64,000 nucleotides of DNA. Source: Marinobacter bohaiensis (GTDB taxonomy: Bacteria; Pseudomonadota; Gammaproteobacteria; Pseudomonadales; Oleiphilaceae). The translations under genes and the position numbers were made by a program. Each line of letters opens with the position of its first letter. Positions within the stretch are counted from its first letter, which is position 1. Under the pieces are notes generated by a model. The model made no database searches, was not told the origin of the DNA, and saw nothing but the letters and a program-made list of their open reading frames with translations. The DNA is taken from the NCBI RefSeq assembly GCF_003258515.1, contig NZ_QGEH01000002.1, positions 186,001 through 250,000 of the forward strand. Direction: 5' to 3'. Positions 49,830-57,915 of this stretch are shown here, piece after piece.

Positions 49830-49942
49830 TCCGCCCGGCCATGGTGCAATTTCTGAGCAGTTGACCTAGAAACGCCCGCCGCGCCGCTCACCCCAATCCG
49901 CAACAAGCAGCCAACTACCTGATAGATAAGCATTTAAAATAA

Positions 49943-49958
49943 TGGCACGGGCTATGCT
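49943..49958 (+). promoter_or_regulatory. Sigma-54 promoter of nrtABC
   Basis: TGGCACGGGCTATGCT fits the -24/-12 consensus (TGGCACG-N4-TTGCW with one mismatch), with GG at 49944-49945 and GC at 49956-49957 at the required 10-bp spacing. The transcript would begin near 49969. Sigma-54 use fits nitrogen control by NtrC, although no clear NtrC site is visible upstream. Confidence 0.7.
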
Positions 49959-49980
49959 TTATCTCTGGTGACGATTACGC

Positions 49981-50050
49981 GTACTGATTTCGGCTCAGTA
50001 CCTCACAGTTTTGCTACAGATGACAGACGATCTGCAGGCATTGGCGCCTG
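49981..50050 (+). promoter_or_regulatory. nrtA leader with ANTAR-type two-hairpin element
   Basis: The leader between the sigma-54 start and nrtA contains three hairpins. GTACTGA/TCAGTAC (49981-50001) has a seven-base loop. P1 (50017-50034) has stem CAGAT/ATCTG around ACAGAC closed by a G-G mismatch. P2 (50035-50050) has stem CAGGC/GCCTG with the hexaloop ATTGGC. A1 and G4 of a hexaloop, as in P2 (and the P1 loop), are the hallmark of RNAs bound by ANTAR antiterminators such as NasR or NasT. P2 overlaps the 5' arm of the terminator that follows, so the two structures exclude each other. Confidence 0.65.
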
Positions 50051-50082
50051 TCCCCGACAACCGGGGGCGGGCGCTTTTTTTT
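50044..50082 (+). terminator. Intrinsic terminator in the nrtA leader (attenuator)
   Basis: A 13-bp stem (50044-50056 with 50062-50074, three G-T pairs) around an ACAAC loop is followed directly by eight Ts (50075-50082). It ends 32 bases before the nrtA start, with only the ribosome site between. It would stop transcription before the structural genes unless the P2 hairpin forms instead. Confidence 0.85.
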
Positions 50083-50114
50083 GCCCAAAAGAAAAGACGA
50101 CATAGGAGAGACGC

Positions 50115-51482
50115 ATGGCGAGCCGTATCCTGACTGCAACCTTTGCCGCGGCACTGGGACTGGGCTCCAGCCTGGCCGCCCACGGCCAAGAGCTGCCCCC
50201 CCCGGAAAAACCCGACCTGAAGCTGGGCTTCATCAAGCTGACCGACATGGCGCCGCTGGCGGTAGCGTGGGAGAACGGCTACTTCATGGACGAGGGCCTG
50301 TTCGTGGAGCTGGAGGCCCAGGCCAACTGGAAAGTCCTGCTGGACCGGGTCATCACCGGTGAGCTGGACGGTGCCCACATGCTGGCCGGCCAGCCACTGG
50401 GCGCGACCATCGGCTACGGCACCCAGGCCAACATCGTCACCGCCTTCAGCATGGACCTGAACGGCAACGGCATCACCGTTTCCAACGATGTCTGGGAGAA
50501 GATGAAAGCCAACATCCCGGACAACGGCAACGGCCAGCCGCAGCACCCGATCAGCGCCAGCGCCCTGAAACCGGTAGTCGAAGCGCAGCATGAGACCGGT
50601 GAGCCGTTCAAGATGGGCATGGTGTTCCCGGTCTCCACCCACAACTACGAGCTGCGCTACTGGCTGGCCGCCGGCGGCCTGAATCCGGGCTACTACGCGC
50701 CCCATAAAGGCGACACCAGCGGCACCCTGCAGGCGGACGTGCAGTTGTCTGTCACCCCGCCGCCGCAGATGCCCTCCACCCTGGAAGCGGGCACCATCCA
50801 GGGCTACTGCGTGGGCGAACCCTGGAACCAGCAGGCCGTGTTCAAGGGCATCGGCGTGCCGGTGATCACGGACTACGAAATCTGGCCCAACAACCCGGAA
50901 AAGGTGTTCGGCGTCACCGAACAGTGGGCCGAAAAGAACCCCAACACCCACCTGCACCTGTTGCGCGCCCTGATCCGCGCCGCCTACTGGCTGGACGAGA
51001 ACAACAACGCCAACCGCGAGGAAGCGGTGAAGATGCTGGCCCGGCCCAACTACGTGGGCGCCGACGAGGAAGTGATCGCCAATTCCATGACCGGCACCTT
51101 CGAGTATGAAAAAGGCGACGTGCGGGACGTGCCCGACTTCAACGTCTTCTTCCGCTACTACGCCACCTACCCGTATCCGTCCGACGCCATCTGGTACCTG
51201 TCGCAGATGCGCCGCTGGGGCCAGATCGCCGAGCCCAAGCCGGATGACTGGTACATGGACATCGCCAAAAAGGTCTACCGCGCGGATATCTACGAGAAAG
51301 CCGCCCAGTCGCTGATCGCCGACGGCACTCTTCCTGCAAGCGCTTTCCCCGACATGGACGCGGAGAACTTCACCCGCCCCGACCAGGGCGAGCTGATCGA
51401 CGGCGTGGTCTTCGACCCGAAAAAGCCCAACGCCTACATCGACAGCTTCGAGATCGGCCTGAAAGGTAACGAGACCCTGTAA
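50115..51482 (+). CDS. nrtA: Nitrate ABC transporter substrate-binding protein
   Basis: 455 residues with a signal peptide ([18 protein letters not shown], cleavage near HGQE). The mature protein is of the NrtA/CmpA family ([23 protein letters not shown] at the N-terminus; [17 protein letters not shown] later). It captures nitrate, possibly nitrite, in the periplasm for the NrtB/NrtC importer. It is first in a three-gene operon, under a sigma-54 promoter and leader attenuator. The length is in the family's range. A cytoplasmic NasS sensor would look similar, but the signal peptide and the linked permease and ATPase argue for a transporter. Confidence 0.92.
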
Positions 51483-51503
51483 CCGGGTCCCTGGAGAACC
51501 GCT

Positions 51504-52481
51504 ATGAGCACGCTCACCACCTCCAACCCACTGCTGCAGCTGATCCGCCGCCGCTACCCGGACGTGACCGGCCGCGCCCTGCTGCAATCCGTGACCCTGC
51601 CGGTGCTGGGCATTGCCCTGTTCCTGATCGCCTGGCAGCTGGTCGCCCCGCAGATCAACACCTCGCTGGGTAACTTCCCGACCCCGGCCAACGTCTGGGA
51701 ACAGGCGGGACAGCTCTGGCAGGAACACCAGAACGAGCAGGACCGGGCGGACAAATTCATCGAGATGCAGGAGAAGCGCAACGCCCGCATCCTGGCCGAC
51801 AATCCGGACGCGGAAACCAAAATCCGCCCCTATCCCGGCGCGCCCACTTTCTTCGACCAGATCGGCACCAGCCTGGTGACGGTGCTGGCCGGCTTCGCCC
51901 TGGCCACGCTGATCGCCGTGCCACTGGGGGTACTGATCGGGCTGAACCGCTACTTCGCGGCGGCGGCCAACCCGATCATTCAGATCTTCAAGCCGGTCTC
52001 TCCCCTGGCCTGGCTGCCGCTGGTGACCATGGTGGTCTCGGCCACCTACGTCAGCGACGACCCGATGTTCGAGAAGGCGTTCATTACCTCCATGATCACC
52101 GTCACCCTGTGCAGCCTCTGGCCCACGCTGATCAACACCGCCACCGGCGTGGCGCAGGTCAACCCGGACCTGGTCAACGTGTCGCGGGTGCTGCGCCTGC
52201 CGTTCTGGACCCACGCCCGCAAGGTGGTGCTGCCGGCGGCGGTGCCGATGATCTTCACCGGCCTGCGGGTGTCCCTGGGCATCGCCTGGATGGTGCTGAT
52301 CGCCGCCGAGATGCTGGCCCAGAACCCGGGCCTCGGCAAGTTCGTCTGGGACGAGTTCCAGAACGGCAGCAGCGATTCATTGAGCCGCATCATGGTGGCG
52401 GTCCTGGCCATCGGCGTGATCGGCTACGGCCTGGACCGGATCATGCTGTTGATCCAGCGCAAAGTGGCCTGGGACGAGTAA
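51504..52481 (+). CDS. nrtB: Nitrate ABC transporter permease
   Basis: 325 residues of the NrtB/SsuC permease family, with about six membrane helices and the EAA-type loop around VSRVLRLPFWTHARKVVLPAAVP. Between the first helix and the second, residues ~65-110 form a charged insert (HQNEQDRADKFIEMQEKRNARI) that most SsuC-type permeases lack; it lies on the periplasmic or cytoplasmic side depending on topology. It forms the nitrate channel with NrtC. It lies 21 bp after nrtA and 66 bp before nrtC. Confidence 0.92.
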   Translation: MSTLTTSNPLLQLIRRRYPDVTGRALLQSVTLPVLGIALFLIAWQLVAPQINTSLGNFPTPANVWEQAGQLWQEHQNEQDRADKFIEMQEKRNARILADNPDAETKIRPYPGAPTFFDQIGTSLVTVLAGFALATLIAVPLGVLIGLNRYFAAAANPIIQIFKPVSPLAWLPLVTMVVSATYVSDDPMFEKAFITSMITVTLCSLWPTLINTATGVAQVNPDLVNVSRVLRLPFWTHARKVVLPAAVPMIFTGLRVSLGIAWMVLIAAEMLAQNPGLGKFVWDEFQNGSSDSLSRIMVAVLAIGVIGYGLDRIMLLIQRKVAWDE

Positions 52482-52547
52482 GCCGCCGGGGATGAACAGA
52501 ACCGTCGCCCGGTACGAAAAACGCGCACAGGCGCGAGGAGACAGATC

Positions 52548-53465
52548 ATGAGCAAGGCACATCTTGAACTCACCGGCGTCAGCATGAGCTTCGATACCCC
52601 GCAGGGGCCGTTCCAGGCGCTGGACACCGTCAACCTGAAAATCCGCAAGGGCGAGTTCGTCTCGCTGATCGGCCACTCCGGCTGCGGCAAGTCGACGGTA
52701 CTCAACATCGTCGCCGGCCTGCTGCAGGCCAGCCAGGGCGGCTGCGTGCTGGACGGCCACGAGGTCAACACGCCGGGCCCCGAGCGCGCGGTGGTGTTCC
52801 AGCACCACGCCCTGATGCCCTGGCTGACGGTGTACGAGAACGTGGAACTGGCGGTGCGTCAGGTGTTCCGCAAGACCATGAACAAGGCCGAACGCCACGA
52901 CTGGATCGTCCACAACCTGCAACTGGTCAATATGGCCCACGCGGCGGACAAACGCCCCGGCGAGATCTCCGGGGGCATGGCCCAGCGGGTGGGCATCGCC
53001 CGGGCGCTGTCCATGCGCCCCAGCGTGCTGCTGATGGACGAACCCTTCGGCGCCCTCGACGCCCTCACCCGGGCGCACCTGCAGGACGCGCTGATGGAGA
53101 TCCAGCAGGACCTCAACAGCACGGTGATCATGATCACCCACGACGTGGACGAAGCGGTACTGCTTTCGGACCGCATCGTCATGATGACCAACGGCCCGGC
53201 GGCCACCATCGGCGAAGAGCTGGCCATCGACCTGCCGCGCCCGCGCAACCGGGTCACCCTGGCGGACGACCCGGAGTACGTGCACTACCGCCAGGCGGTG
53301 CTGCGCTTCCTCTACGAGAAGCAGCGCTTCCCGGGCAAGGGTGGGGCGACGGAAACACCGACTGCAGACGCTGTAGAGCCCGCCGAAGAGAAGACGGCGG
53401 AGACGAAGGGTGGGGAAACCGCCCGCGCACCGGAAAAAGCCGCCGTCGTCACCGAGCCGAACTGA
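52548..53465 (+). CDS. nrtC: Nitrate ABC transporter ATP-binding protein
   Basis: 305 residues. Walker A (GHSGCGKST), Q-loop (FQHHALMPWLTVYENV), signature ISGGMAQRVGIARAL and Walker B (VLLMDEPFGALDALT) are intact. The ATPase is of the NrtD/TauB type and lacks the NrtA-like C-terminal domain of cyanobacterial NrtC, so the symbol is loose (nrtD would also fit). The last ~40 residues are a Lys/Glu/Ala/Thr-rich tail (ETPTADAVEPAEEKTAETKG) with no known role. It powers nitrate uptake. It is the last gene of the nrt operon; the next unit has its own promoter and terminator leader. Confidence 0.92.
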   Translation: MSKAHLELTGVSMSFDTPQGPFQALDTVNLKIRKGEFVSLIGHSGCGKSTVLNIVAGLLQASQGGCVLDGHEVNTPGPERAVVFQHHALMPWLTVYENVELAVRQVFRKTMNKAERHDWIVHNLQLVNMAHAADKRPGEISGGMAQRVGIARALSMRPSVLLMDEPFGALDALTRAHLQDALMEIQQDLNSTVIMITHDVDEAVLLSDRIVMMTNGPAATIGEELAIDLPRPRNRVTLADDPEYVHYRQAVLRFLYEKQRFPGKGGATETPTADAVEPAEEKTAETKGGETARAPEKAAVVTEPN

Positions 53466-53574
53466 TCGCTTTTAGTGCAGTTTTGACCCCTCACGAACCA
53501 GCGCTGGGCAAAACCATCGGAGCGGATATTTTCCGATAACCTCTAATTATTTGTTTTTGTTAGAAATACCAGCC

Positions 53575-53590
53575 TGGCACGCTTATCGCT
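53575..53590 (+). promoter_or_regulatory. Sigma-54 promoter of the nitrite reductase operon
   Basis: TGGCACGCTTATCGCT has the invariant GG (53576-53577) and GC (53588-53589) with the 10-bp spacing, and shares TGGCACG with the nrtA promoter. The start would fall near 53601. This shows that the FAD-nirB-nirD genes form a separate unit from nrtABC. Confidence 0.7.
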
Positions 53591-53613
53591 TTATAGAAAA
53601 CAGGACGACTTGC

Positions 53614-53665
53614 CCGATCAGGGATTGATCGGACCATCAAACATCGTTGTTGGCACTGACGCCGG
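53614..53665 (+). promoter_or_regulatory. Second ANTAR-type leader element, before the nir operon
   Basis: A 7-bp hairpin CCGATCA/TGATCGG lies at 53614-53632. A second hairpin at 53650-53665 has stem TTGGC/GCCGG with the hexaloop ACTGAC, again A1 and G4. The latter overlaps the 5' arm of the terminator that follows, as in the nrtA leader. The first hairpin, if opened by one pair, has an AGGGAT loop (A1, G4) and may be P1; this is less certain. Confidence 0.6.
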
Positions 53666-53706
53666 ACCATCGCGCCTCGCAAGGGGACGATGCTCCGGCT
53701 TTTTTT
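53661..53706 (+). terminator. Intrinsic terminator in the nir operon leader (attenuator)
   Basis: GCCGGA (53661-53666) pairs with TCCGGC (53694-53699). ATCG and CGAT form an inner stem beyond a small internal loop, and seven Ts (53700-53706) follow. It lies 34 bases before the start of the first gene. Confidence 0.8.
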
Positions 53707-53740
53707 GTTGGGCCGCTGGCCGGCCCGGGGACAGGAACGC

Positions 53741-54955
53741 ATGACCGATCGCAGACTCGTCATCATCGGACACGGCATGGTCGCCCAGCGGCTGCTGGAG
53801 CGACTGATGGCCCGCGACGCGCATCCGTACACGCAGATCGACGTGCTCAGCGCCGAAGCGGTGCCGGCCTACAACCGGGTGCTGCTGTCCTCGGTCCTGG
53901 CCGGCGACGCCAATCTGGACGGCATTACCCTGCAGCCGCTGGACTGGTTCGCCCGCCACAGCATCCACCTGCACGCGGACACCCCGGTCAGCGCCATCGA
54001 CACCGACCGCCAGACCGTCACCAGCCGCGACGGCGACACCTTCGCCTACGACGATCTGGTGCTGGCCACCGGCGCGCGTCCGGCCTCCCTGAAACTGCCG
54101 GGCGAGGAGCTAGACGGCGTGGTCACCTTCCGCGACATCCGCGATACCGAAAAACTGCTGGCCGCCAGTCGCCGGCATCGTCGCGCCGTAGTCATCGGCG
54201 GTGGTTTCCTGGGACTGGAAGCCGCCGACGGCCTGAGCCAGCAGGGCATGGCGGTGACCGTCCTGCATCGCAGCCCGTACCTGCTCAACCGCCAGCTCGA
54301 TCCCACCGCCGGCCAGCTGCTGCAGGACGCCCTGGAACGCCGCGGTATCCACAGCGTCACCGGACAGAATCCCCGCGCGCTGATCGGCGAGCGCCGGGTG
54401 CGCGCCGTGCAACTGGCGGACGAGACCCTGATCAGCACCGACCTGGTGGTGCTGGCCGCCGGCATTCGTCCCAACGCCGAAATCGCCCGGGACGCCGGCA
54501 TCGACTGCGAGCGCGGCATCGTGGTGGATCACTACCTGCGTACCGGCACCGATAACGTCTACGCCCTGGGCGAATGCTGCCAACTGGGCGAGCACACCTT
54601 CGGCCTGGTGGAACCCGGCTACCAGCAGGCGGATGTCCTGGCCGGCGTACTCTGCGGCAGCGACGCCGAACGCTTCGAGCCCGGCGCCGTAGCCACGCGC
54701 CTGAAAATCAGCGGCATCCCCATTTTCTCATGCGGCCAGGCCCAGCCCGGCCCGGACACCGAATCCGTCATCTGGCAGGACCACGACACCGAGCAGTACT
54801 GCCACCTCATGCTCAGGGACAACCGCCTCGCCGGCGCCGTGCTGTTCGGCGATACCCGCGACGGCCCCTGGTTCTTCGACCAACTCCAGCAACAGCGGGA
54901 CCTGTCGGCGCACCGGCAGCAACTCGCCTTCGGCGCCGCCTACTGCGACGCCTGA
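53741..54955 (+). CDS. NAD(P)/FAD-dependent oxidoreductase of nitrate/nitrite assimilation
   Basis: 404 residues. The FAD motif GHGMVAQ at the N-terminus, a second Rossmann NAD(P) site (VVIGGGFLGLEAADGL, ~150-165) and the GECCQLG segment (~285) place it with the FAD/NAD reductase modules of nitrite reductase NirB and assimilatory nitrate reductase NasB. It resembles the N-terminal half of NirB next door but lacks the Fe-S and sirohaem domains. It probably passes electrons from NAD(P)H to an assimilatory nitrate reductase encoded elsewhere. The ATG at 53741 is preceded by AGGA; the longer upstream frame runs through the terminator. 29 bp lie before nirB. Confidence 0.85.
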   Translation: MTDRRLVIIGHGMVAQRLLERLMARDAHPYTQIDVLSAEAVPAYNRVLLSSVLAGDANLDGITLQPLDWFARHSIHLHADTPVSAIDTDRQTVTSRDGDTFAYDDLVLATGARPASLKLPGEELDGVVTFRDIRDTEKLLAASRRHRRAVVIGGGFLGLEAADGLSQQGMAVTVLHRSPYLLNRQLDPTAGQLLQDALERRGIHSVTGQNPRALIGERRVRAVQLADETLISTDLVVLAAGIRPNAEIARDAGIDCERGIVVDHYLRTGTDNVYALGECCQLGEHTFGLVEPGYQQADVLAGVLCGSDAERFEPGAVATRLKISGIPIFSCGQAQPGPDTESVIWQDHDTEQYCHLMLRDNRLAGAVLFGDTRDGPWFFDQLQQQRDLSAHRQQLAFGAAYCDA

Positions 54956-54984
54956 GCGGACAGAACGATAGAGAGAGACAGACC

Positions 54985-57504
54985 ATGGCTAAACAGACAT
55001 TGATCGTGATCGGGAATGGCATGGTGGGCCATCACTTTCTCGAGCAGTTCGCGGACACCCCCGCGGCGGCGGACTACGACGTCCACGTGTTCGGCGAGGA
55101 ACCGCTGATTGCCTACGACCGGGTCCACCTGTCGGAATACTTCGGCGGCTCCAGCCACGCCGACCTGGCCCTGGGCACCGCCGAGGACTACGCCGCCAAG
55201 GGCCTGACGCTGCACCTGGACGAACAGGTCACCGAACTCGACCGGGACAACCGCAAGGTGATCACGCCCAAGGGGGAATACGAATACGACGCCGTGGTGC
55301 TGGCCACCGGCTCCTACCCGTTCGTGCCGCCCATCGACGGCCATGATCAGGCGCACTGTCTGGTCTACCGCACCCTGGCCGACCTGGACGCCATCCGCGC
55401 CAGCGCCGAGGGCAGGAAGACCGGCGTGGTGGTCGGCGGCGGCCTGCTGGGCCTGGAAGCGGCCAACGCCCTCAAGAGCCTGGGCCTGGAAGCCCACGTG
55501 GTGGAATTCGCGCCGCGCCTGATGCCGGTGCAGCTGGACGCCGACGGCGGCGCCCTGCTCAAGCGCAAGATCGAGGAACTGGGCGTGCAGGTGCACACCG
55601 AGAAGGCCACCACCGCCATCGTGCCGGGCGAGGAGGCGCGCCTGCGCATGAACTTCTCCGACGAATCGCACCTGGAGACGGACCTGATCGTGTTCTCCGC
55701 CGGCATCCGCCCGCAGGACACCCTGGCCCGTTCCAGCGGCCTGGAGATCGGCGAGCGCGGCGGCATCGTCATCGACGACCAGTGCACCACCTCCGACCCG
55801 CAGGTGTTCGCCATCGGCGAGTGCGCGCTGTGGGACAACCGCATCTTCGGCCTGGTAGCGCCGGGTTACACCATGGCCCGCACCCTGGCCGCGCGCCTCA
55901 ACCAGGACGCGGAAGCCGGTTTCAGCGGCGCCGACATGAGCACCAAGCTCAAGCTGCTGGGCGTGGACGTCGGCTCCATCGGCGACGCCCACGGCGCCAC
56001 CCCGGGCGCCCGCAACATCCGCTTCAACGACGAGCAGGCCGGCACCTACGGCCGACTGGTGATCAGCGAGGACGGCAAGAAACTGCTGGGCGCGATCCTG
56101 GTGGGCGATAACGGCCCCTACGACACCCTGCTGCAATACGCCCTGAACGGCATTGACCTGCCGGCCAACCCGGAAAGCCTGATCCTACCGGTTTCCGAGG
56201 GCGGCGCGCCGGCCCTGGGTCCCGACGCCCTGCCGGAAACCGCGTCCATCTGCTCCTGCCACAACGTCAGCAAGGGCGATATCTGCGGCGCTATCGACGC
56301 CGGCTGCACCGACCTGGGCGCGGTCAAGGGCGAGACCAAGGCCAGCACCGGCTGCGGTGGCTGCGCGGCGCTGCTCAAGTCGGTGGTGGACAGCGAGCTG
56401 GAAAAACGCGGCGTGGAGGTCAGCAAGGACATCTGCGAGCACTTCCCCTACAGCCGCCAGGAGCTGTTCCATCTGGTCAAGGTCAACGGCATCCGCACCT
56501 TCCGCACGCTGATCGAGCAGCATGGCAAAGGCCACGGCTGCGACATCTGCAAGCCGGCGGTGGCGTCGATCCTGGCCACCTGCTGGAACGAGCACATCAT
56601 GGCGTCGGAGCACGTGCCGCTGCAGGACACCAACGACACCTTCATGGCCAACATGCAGAAGAACGGCACCTACTCCATCGTGCCGCGCATCCCCGGCGGC
56701 GAGATCACCCCGGAGAAGCTGATCGTGCTGGGGGAAGTGGCCAAGGAGTATGACCTCTACACCAAGATCACCGGCGGCCAGCGGGTCGACCTGTTCGGTG
56801 CCACGTTGAGCGAGCTGCCGGAGATCTGGGAAAAGCTGATCGCCGCCGGCTTCGAGACCGGCCACGCCTACGGCAAGTCGGTGCGCACGGTGAAATCCTG
56901 CGTCGGCAGCACTTGGTGCCGCTACGGCGTGCAGGACAGCGTGGGCATGGCGATCCAACTGGAGGAGCGCTACAAGGGCCTGCGCTCGCCGCACAAGCTC
57001 AAGTTCGCCGTGTCCGGCTGCACCCGGGAGTGCGCCGAGGCCCAGAGCAAGGACATCGGCGTGATCGCCACCGAGAACGGCTGGAACCTCTACGTCTGCG
57101 GCAACGGCGGCATGCGCCCGCGCCACGCCGACCTGTTCGCCACCGACCTGTCCGACGAGGCGCTGATCAGCACCATCGACCGGGTCCTGATGTTTTACGT
57201 GCGCACAGCGGATCGCCTGCAGCGCACCAGCGTCTGGCTGGAAAACCTGGAAGGCGGCCTGGACTACCTCAAAGAGGTCATCCTGGAAGACAGCCTGGGG
57301 CTGGGCGAAGAACTCGAAGCCCACATGCAGGACATCATCGGCACCTACCAGTGCGAGTGGAAGAGCGCGGTGGAGGATCCCGAGAAGCGCAAGCGCTTCC
57401 GCGAGTTCGTCAACGCCCCGGACAAGAAAGACCCGGTGCAGCACTGGACCACCGAGCGCGACCAGCGCCGTCCGGCCAACGAAATCAAGGTGGAGATGGT
57501 CTGA
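54985..57504 (+). CDS. nirB: Nitrite reductase (NADH) large subunit
   Basis: 839 residues that reduce nitrite to ammonium in the cytoplasm. The order is an FAD/NAD reductase (~1-400; GNGMVGHHFLEQ, VVVGGGLLGLEAAN), then a BFD-like [2Fe-2S] region with Cys423 and Cys425 (ICSCHN) and GCGGC further on. A sirohaem/[4Fe-4S] domain follows, with ligands Cys639, Cys645, Cys679 and Cys683 (CVGSTWC and SGCTRECAEAQ). All key residues are present and the length is normal. The start at 54985 has only a weak GAGAGAGA upstream. It is expressed with the FAD oxidoreductase and nirD from the sigma-54 leader. Confidence 0.96.
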   Translation: MAKQTLIVIGNGMVGHHFLEQFADTPAAADYDVHVFGEEPLIAYDRVHLSEYFGGSSHADLALGTAEDYAAKGLTLHLDEQVTELDRDNRKVITPKGEYEYDAVVLATGSYPFVPPIDGHDQAHCLVYRTLADLDAIRASAEGRKTGVVVGGGLLGLEAANALKSLGLEAHVVEFAPRLMPVQLDADGGALLKRKIEELGVQVHTEKATTAIVPGEEARLRMNFSDESHLETDLIVFSAGIRPQDTLARSSGLEIGERGGIVIDDQCTTSDPQVFAIGECALWDNRIFGLVAPGYTMARTLAARLNQDAEAGFSGADMSTKLKLLGVDVGSIGDAHGATPGARNIRFNDEQAGTYGRLVISEDGKKLLGAILVGDNGPYDTLLQYALNGIDLPANPESLILPVSEGGAPALGPDALPETASICSCHNVSKGDICGAIDAGCTDLGAVKGETKASTGCGGCAALLKSVVDSELEKRGVEVSKDICEHFPYSRQELFHLVKVNGIRTFRTLIEQHGKGHGCDICKPAVASILATCWNEHIMASEHVPLQDTNDTFMANMQKNGTYSIVPRIPGGEITPEKLIVLGEVAKEYDLYTKITGGQRVDLFGATLSELPEIWEKLIAAGFETGHAYGKSVRTVKSCVGSTWCRYGVQDSVGMAIQLEERYKGLRSPHKLKFAVSGCTRECAEAQSKDIGVIATENGWNLYVCGNGGMRPRHADLFATDLSDEALISTIDRVLMFYVRTADRLQRTSVWLENLEGGLDYLKEVILEDSLGLGEELEAHMQDIIGTYQCEWKSAVEDPEKRKRFREFVNAPDKKDPVQHWTTERDQRRPANEIKVEMV

Positions 57505-57549
57505 TGCCTATCGGCCCCCTACCCCATCAAGCATGCGAGGAAAACCATC

Positions 57550-57915
57550 ATGTCTGAGACACAATGGATGCACGTCGGCGAACGCGGTGACCTGATCCCC
57601 GAATCCGGCATCGCCGTGTGGACCCCGGACGGCCCGGTGGCCGTGTTCTACCTGCCGGGTGCAGAACCGGAACTCTACGCCATCGGCCACTACTGCCCGC
57701 TGGGCCAGGCCAACGTGCTGGCCCGAGGCATCGTCGGCGATCTCAAGGGTGAGCTGGTGGTGGCGTCGCCGCTGTACAAGCAGCATTACAGCCTGACCAG
57801 CGGCCGGTGCCAGGAGGATGAATCGGTGTCCGTGCCCACCTACGGCGTACGGCTGAACGGCGACGCCCTGGAACTGGCCGTACCGGTCACCGCCAAGGAA
57901 GGCTGCGCCGCCTGA
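57550..57915 (+). CDS. nirD: Nitrite reductase (NADH) small subunit
   Basis: 121 residues of Rieske-like fold without the Fe-S ligands, as usual for NirD (WMHVGERGDLIPESGIAVW, YAIGHYCPLGQANVLARG). It supports NirB in nitrite reduction. GAGGA lies eight bases before the ATG, 45 bp downstream of nirB. A strong terminator follows. No catalytic nitrate reductase subunit follows in this window, so the organism's NasA must be encoded elsewhere or be absent. Confidence 0.93.
   Translation: MSETQWMHVGERGDLIPESGIAVWTPDGPVAVFYLPGAEPELYAIGHYCPLGQANVLARGIVGDLKGELVVASPLYKQHYSLTSGRCQEDESVSVPTYGVRLNGDALELAVPVTAKEGCAA

Follow-up and report, generated by a model that had tools for sequence, protein, structure and literature searches.

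The window, as we call the whole stretch of 64,000 nucleotides analysed here, corresponds to C2:186001-250000 of a 4.76 Mb genome and carries nitrate-assimilation genes in the order nrtABC, a NirB-like FAD oxidoreductase gene, nirB and nirD. Comparison of NrtA sequences placed its closest named relatives in Marinobacter. The gene preceding nrtA encodes what we take to be an endonuclease-V-like protein. Upstream of nrtA lies a presumed leader with a promoter, hairpins and a terminator, and a second leader (53575-53706), missed in the original prediction, precedes the nitrite-reductase genes and extends the regulon within the window. The separate FAD oxidoreductase gene, which resembles the N-terminal half of NirB, sits between this nir leader and nirB. 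Table 1 lists the features; transcription starts in all leaders were placed from the promoter position.

Table 1. Genes and predicted regulatory features of the nrt and nir region, in window positions.
Feature	Position	Strand	Remarks
Degenerate NtrC-like site GCCCGGCCATGGTGC (GCCCG-N5-GGTGC), candidate only	49833..49847	+	2 mismatches to GCACY-N5-RGTGC
-24/-12 (sigma-54) promoter of nrtABC, TGGCACGGGCTATGC, GG-N10-GC	49943..49957	+	motif; equivalent in family leaders
Presumed 5' leader of nrtA	49969..50114	+	start placed 12 nt after -12; fold z -3.2
Upstream hairpin GTACTGA-TTTCGGC-TCAGTAC	49981..50001	+	7-nt loop without A1/G4
Originally predicted P1, CAGAT-GACAGACG-ATCTG	50017..50034	+	outer stem partly kept
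P2 antitermination hairpin (predicted), GCAGGC-ATTGGC-GCCTGT	50034..50051	+	loop ATTGGC 50040-50045 (A1, G4)
Intrinsic terminator, excludes P2	50043..50082	+	stem 50043-50075 (14 pairs), T8 50075-50082
nrtA-type nitrate-binding protein (NMT1_2)	50115..51482	+	profile match
nrtB-type permease, NtrB-like	51504..52481	+	TIGR01183 below cut-off
nrtC/D-type ATPase	52548..53465	+	TIGR01184 above cut-off
-24/-12 site of nir leader, TGGCACGCTTATCGC	53575..53589	+	similar sites in relatives
Conserved nir hairpin CCGATC-AGGGATT-GATCGG	53614..53632	+	P1-like (A1/G4), ANGGA-type; loop 7 nt (relatives 6-9)
P2 hexaloop of nir leader, GGC-ACTGAC-GCC	53652..53663	+	
Terminator of nir leader	53661..53706	+	T7 53700-53706
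FAD oxidoreductase resembling N-terminal half of NirB	53741..54955	+	start codon chosen by us
nirB, nitrite reductase large subunit	54979..57504	+	start codon chosen by us
nirD, nitrite reductase small subunit	57550..57915	+	

Promoter, terminator and predicted regulators of the nrt operon

The original prediction had described the DNA before nrtA as a sigma-54 promoter under NtrC control, followed by twin hairpins, P1 and P2, and by a terminator that cannot form together with P2. The A1/G4 hexaloop of P2 and the terminator with its T8 run right before nrtA were both confirmed, as was their mutual exclusion, bases 50046-50051 being paired in either structure. The leader therefore contains the A1/G4 hexaloop on a stem of at least three pairs, overlapping an intrinsic terminator, that is expected of an ANTAR target. 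Between 49600 and 50300, no other site resembles a terminator (shuffled mean 0.6). Taken as a whole, the leader outperforms its shuffles in folding, and its first 92 nt, comprising P1 and P2 without the 3' arm of the terminator, do not (z = -0.05). In stepwise folding, P2 belonged to the minimum-energy fold from 50050 onward, was compatible with five terminator pairs up to 50070 and was displaced from 50071. Rfam scans of the window returned nothing at gathering score and no ANTAR-type match, and at the nrt leader they gave only weak, chance-like matches.

The -24/-12 element is present as GG-N10-GC within TGGCAC-N5-TTGC, and RpoN is encoded in the genome. Taken alone, the motif is no rarity: allowing one mismatch gives 24 matches in the window, where chance predicts 33. 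All 93 family leaders that combine P2 with an ANTAR match, however, have a site with a score of 12 or more out of 14 in the 240 nt before P2 (mean in shuffles 2.4, maximum 6), and because of this conservation the site stands above chance. The sigma-54 part of the proposed control was thus borne out by promoter and RpoN. For NtrC, a single degenerate candidate was found, whose GGTGC half is retained in five of the six leaders of the genus, the sixth alignment row ending short of it; degenerate NtrC-like matches in the window showed no excess over chance.

A search of the full genome for nasT and nasS returned a single NasT with an adjoining NasS, so that the absence of ANTAR proteins that would argue against the original prediction is not what was found. 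The only ANTAR match in the genome (C1:9755-9913, E 2.7e-20) belongs to a REC-ANTAR protein of NasT type (PF00072 and PF03861) instead of the NIT domain fused to ANTAR that characterizes NasR. Directly downstream, 14 nt apart, lies the gene for a NasS-type NMT1_2 protein (PF13379), which makes this a NasS-NasT pair. The pair is divergent from nasA, whose product matches assimilatory nitrate reductase models with scores below their cut-offs. In the five other genomes of the genus a nasS-like gene lies at most about 2 kb from nrtA; the window's genome has these two genes on separate contigs. More generally, nasA, nasTS, nrt and nir form one cluster in five of the six genus genomes (e.g., L094 8517-13379, compared with 50115-57915 in the window), and in the window's genome nasA-nasTS is on another contig than nrt and nir.

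Conservation of P2 and other leaders of the regulon

Relatives of nrtA were found in 111 of the 163 family genomes, and 110 leaders were read (G041 was left out). Of 97 leaders whose genomes have an ANTAR match, 92 showed P2 overlapping a terminator within the last 275 nt, as opposed to 0/12 for genomes that have none (shuffled means 1.9/97 and 0.1/12); the 12 are drawn from 13, the 133-nt leader of G024 having been left out. On whole fetched regions, the counts were 93/97 and 1/13, the latter a weak hit in G169, and the leader separating 93 from 92 is probably that of G146, where the cut of the region was misplaced. Of the four misses on whole regions, three (G076, G102 and G151) retain the hairpin as CAGGC-ANNGGC-GCCTG, but their T run is poor. 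Since the finder demanded A1 and G4, their invariance is built in. The 13 ANTAR-negative genomes represent four genera (g2 with 4, g3 with 7, g12 and g13 with 1 each), and the contrast therefore rests on few independent events. In the leader of G057 (L162), the fourth miss, P2 is without A1 and the ANTAR match is partial, a single case of possible joint decay of switch and regulator.

This association, together with the NasT-NasS pair, agrees with the originally predicted antitermination of nrtABC by an ANTAR protein. Because the genome encodes one ANTAR protein, a NasT beside NasS, and RpoN, there is good support for assigning the -24/-12 promoter, P2 and overlapping T8 terminator before nrtA to a putative nitrate-controlled attenuator.

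The pattern GGCANNGNNGCC-N18-48-T6 occurs at exactly three places in the window's genome, all before nitrate-assimilation genes: before nasA (C1:10631), before nrtA, and at window position 53652 before the FAD oxidoreductase gene and nirBD. A reversed control pattern gave one match. The pattern precedes all three nitrate operons in 6/6 genus genomes, the other five of which also have unrelated matches. The nasA leaders of the genus carry a -24/-12-like site and P2, with P1 in 0/6, and in two of them (G001 and G004) the presumed start is only 20 nt from P2.

The nir leader was found in 22 of the 23 loci searched, comprising all 6 of the genus and 16/17 of Marinobacter; the remaining contig is short (L023: none). 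Its upstream hairpin is paired in 87.9% of alignment cells, with 13 cells showing two-sided changes compared with 4.8 in shuffles, while pairs with two-sided changes (2) were no more frequent than in shuffles. The loop region of this hairpin reads ANGGA in 18 of the 22 aligned leaders, the window's included, and further GGA triplets lie nearby. The loop resembles the consensus of CsrA/RsmA sites no less than it does an ANTAR P1. The genome encodes CsrA, and carbon-storage control of nitrite reductase is possible.

The upstream hairpin P1

P1 was sought up to 70 nt upstream of P2 as an A1/G4 hexaloop on at least 4 pairs, or on 6 with one defect. Among the 81 leaders of the genus of the window's genome (g1, 6 leaders), Marinobacter (g11, 74) and one further genus (g15, 1), it was found in 5 (shuffled mean 2.6), whereas 8 of the 12 other ANTAR-positive family leaders (shuffled 0.8) and 32 of 45 P2-bearing loci outside the family carried one (Fisher's test for 5/81 vs 40/57, 7e-16 with kinship ignored). 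The outside set came from 61 loci searched, 46 of them with P2, L055 and L061 having been left out beforehand. L071 proved to be family genome G177, and its removal changed 33/46 (shuffled 2.0) to 32/45; L074, also a family genome, is without P2, and L041 and L047, two contigs of one metagenome bin, were both counted. As 13 of the 45 outside leaders are also without P1 by the finder, P1 is not universal outside the family either.

Allowing a mismatched closing pair raised the counts to 7/81 (shuffled 3.8) and left 8/12 in the rest of the family (1.2); the P1 originally predicted in the window is then counted. When only the transcribed part was considered, 5/81 exceeded the shuffled mean of 1.2 and was reached by 0/200 shuffles, and a few leaders therefore do keep a P1-like hairpin. 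Such a hairpin is retained in G003 and G167 (with a bulge), most clearly in G167. The finder is able to see P1-like hairpins in these genomes, since A1/G4 loops of 6-9 nt on at least 5 pairs were detected in 16/22 nir leaders (62 nt searched, shuffled 0.8) vs 4/81 nrt leaders (70 nt searched, 1.9). A modified P1-like hairpin is kept at only one of the genome's three leaders, that of nir, which provides an internal contrast for the P1 question.

In an NrtA tree of 93 rows, a branch with 100/100 support sets apart the 47 Marinobacter-type rows, of which 3 have P1, and rows of g11 are identical to or interleaved with named Marinobacter rows. Over the whole tree, the P1 label, assigned by hand and with L071 counted as outside, requires 14 changes, of which starred branches force 11. 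Since they belong to one clade, the 81 leaders are not 81 independent events.

ANTAR matches in this clade are of two kinds: the frame either shows no NIT match there or matches NIT as well. Frames of the second kind are mostly 413-593 aa long, and one of them matches Klebsiella oxytoca NasR (4akk) at 4.5e-51. By labels assigned by hand, 48 of the 81 leaders come from genomes of the NIT kind, with a median start-to-P2 distance of 30 nt, and 33 from genomes of the NasT kind (56 nt). Both regulator kinds occur in G066 and G175, which were labelled NasT; G057 and G095 have partial ANTAR matches only, and G116 and G127 have fragmentary NIT-ANTAR genes. P2 is kept with both kinds of regulator. P2 follows the presumed start within 31 nt in 31 of the 81 leaders. 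For 30 of these short segments, no fold better than -3 kcal/mol was obtained, and genomes labelled NasR account for 30 of the 31 leaders.

The P2 stem is stronger in this clade, with a median of -7.0 kcal/mol compared with -3.7 outside the family and -2.8 in its remainder (Mann-Whitney p 1e-15, uncorrected for kinship). At the second loop position, 74/81 clade leaders have T or C, and 55/57 others have A. Variation of P2 within the clade is small: 85% of cells pair, and pair 5-14 changes from G-C to A-U in 4/71 rows. Of 500 shuffles, 56 reached the observed number of two-sided pairs, 21 that of cells and 300 that of further pair types; covariation within the clade is therefore weak support at best. 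When ANTAR stretches and alignments were viewed by eye for a residue signature of one-hexaloop regulators, none common to NasT and NasR types was seen. Marinobacter NIT-ANTAR proteins (L110 and others) read KAVLLLM...EAHRVLRKLAM, compared with RAKGLIM...EAYRVLQKAAM in the NasT of the window's genome. In these NIT-ANTAR proteins the lysine of AKG is replaced, as is the aromatic residue that in EutV stacks on G4 (numbering by eye), and G4 of P2 is kept.

The role of P1 might be filled by a non-canonical element, be it the hairpin at 49981-50001, unstructured upstream sequence, or a contact of NasT or NasR with the polymerase, and we regard this as unlikely. That hairpin has a true ATCGGC (A1/G4) hexaloop in G003 and the same letters, located before an insertion, in G002, and several NasT-type Marinobacter leaders carry other upstream hairpins. 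In the window, however, its loop lacks A1/G4, it is not kept in G001, G004 and G005, and the 31 leaders with short start-to-P2 segments leave at most 31 nt for any upstream element. As its A1/G4 reading exists only in G003 and G002, the hairpin was rejected as P1 and retained only as part of this alternative. The insertion in the G002 leader (L004), about 146 nt between promoter and P2, leaves P2 and terminator intact.

Less probable still is a classical twin-hairpin leader, as originally predicted, in which P1 at 50017-50034 would work despite a G-G mismatch. The letters are present and five pairs fold, and in the genus alignment each of the four outer pairs persists in at least 4 of the 5 distinct rows; 76% of cells pair, compared with 12-44% for slid versions, and this region may therefore hold a weak hairpin in the genus. 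The loop of this fold is nonetheless 8 nt long, and an A1/G4 hexaloop exists only if the G-G mismatch closes it. The innermost pair is kept in 1/5 rows, and no pair shows a two-sided change. With the mismatched closing pair allowed, the finder detected an A1/G4 hexaloop at this place in 0/5 other genus leaders, so that the second, upstream A1/G4 hexaloop of dual-hexaloop ANTAR targets (Ramesh et al. 2012) has only this form, restricted to the window's genome. The hairpin also abuts P2, a linker of 0 nt as opposed to the 5-12 nt of the eut type, and there is no conserved P1 from which to measure another. Block ACGATCTGCAGGCATTGGCGCCT is invariant across the six genus members, and the 5' half of the hairpin is variable. 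On genus alignment, pair count and mismatch-tolerant finder, and with any P1 in so few of the relatives' leaders, this hairpin was rejected as an ANTAR P1, and the twin-hairpin reading is not supported.

That P2 serves another regulator or none, as a fixed attenuator linked to ANTAR proteins by descent, draws on 11 of the 13 nrtA-bearing ANTAR-negative genomes belonging to two genera (g2 and g3), and is very improbable given that its A1, G4 and C-G closure match the ANTAR consensus (in the available part of PMC7496416), that P2 accompanies NasR and NasT alike, that the pattern precedes all three nitrate operons throughout the genus, and that G172, ANTAR-negative in the otherwise ANTAR-positive g13, is also without P2.

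Proposed mechanism and comparison with known systems

Altogether, these observations suggested that the nrt leader is probably an ANTAR-type transcription attenuator that responds to nitrate and has a single hexaloop, without P1. Its parts, their conservation, the P2-ANTAR link, the near-absence of P1 and the folding order were computed here. In the proposed mechanism, sigma-54 polymerase would start near 49969, and P2 would fold once 50050 is transcribed and coexist with the top five terminator pairs until the polymerase is at about 50071. The lower terminator stem would then displace P2, and transcription would stop in the T8 run. With nitrate or nitrite, NasT would be freed from NasS and bind the P2 hexaloop, blocking this displacement; with P2 occupied, only the upper terminator stem could form, at some distance from the T run, and the polymerase would read into nrtABC. 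No recruitment hairpin would be involved, the lineage having a stronger P2 stem instead. The binding of NasT and the nitrate response are proposed by analogy: NasT would be the binder, released from NasS by nitrate, because this is so in Paracoccus denitrificans (available text of PMC3795266). That one hexaloop suffices for antitermination we infer from the absence of P1.

With somewhat less confidence, we favor the wider reading that the NasT and NasR proteins of Marinobacter and its sister genera keep the terminator at bay by way of a single hexaloop, P1 having been lost and replaced by a stronger, self-sufficient P2, so that P1 would be no general requirement of ANTAR antitermination. The nrt leader looks as if it were a new, one-hexaloop variant of a known mechanism; it is classed as a variant because it seemingly works like an ANTAR leader but lacks the defining dual hexaloop.

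In Enterococcus faecalis, where the dual-hairpin motif was defined and is needed, both hairpins matter for eutP in vivo, and induction depends on P1, on P2 and on a linker close to the natural length of 5-12 nt (consulted sections of PMC3369931). SELEX with NasR likewise selected two hairpins, and the K. oxytoca protein binds P2 alone about 12-fold worse (~12 uM vs ~1 uM; PMC7496416, in excerpt). In the EutV structure, an ANTAR dimer contacts single hexaloops, and the minimal ANTAR site was redefined as one hexaloop; the authors held that both hexaloops are needed when racing a terminator, suggested single-hexaloop sites where there is no race with the polymerase, and called for bioinformatics on such sites (PMC8934654, as far as its accessible text goes). 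The P. denitrificans leader contains the hairpins HI and HII, and mutating the first comes at the expense of growth on nitrate (PMC5424462); in this system, nitrate frees NasT (PMC3795266 and PMC5424462, both in the available portions).

A clade of about 80 genomes with a single hexaloop exactly where the terminator race occurs bears on the question raised by the EutV authors. Two-hairpin searches miss one-hexaloop leaders, and ANTAR regulons may therefore be under-counted. In the open-licence literature, no report was found of one-hexaloop terminator leaders or of Marinobacter ANTAR leaders.

Among the known systems, the nrt leader resembles K. oxytoca nasF with NasR in its connection to nitrate assimilation, in a terminator overlapping a C-G-closed A1/G4 hexaloop and, putatively, in general nitrogen control (excerpts of PMC7496416 and PMC5424462); it differs in having one hexaloop instead of two and a REC-ANTAR NasT with NasS instead of a NIT-ANTAR regulator. 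As in the NasS-NasT system of P. denitrificans, there is a nasT-nasS pair and a nasA leader with hairpins (PMC3795266 and PMC5424462, in part), whereas P1 was not seen at two of the genome's three operons, unlike the HI and HII arrangement described in the available text. Finally, P2 overlaps the terminator as in the E. faecalis eut leaders controlled by EutV (PMC8934654, accessible text), and in contrast to eutP, with its P1, P2 and linker (PMC3369931, consulted sections), the nrt leader of the window has P2 only.
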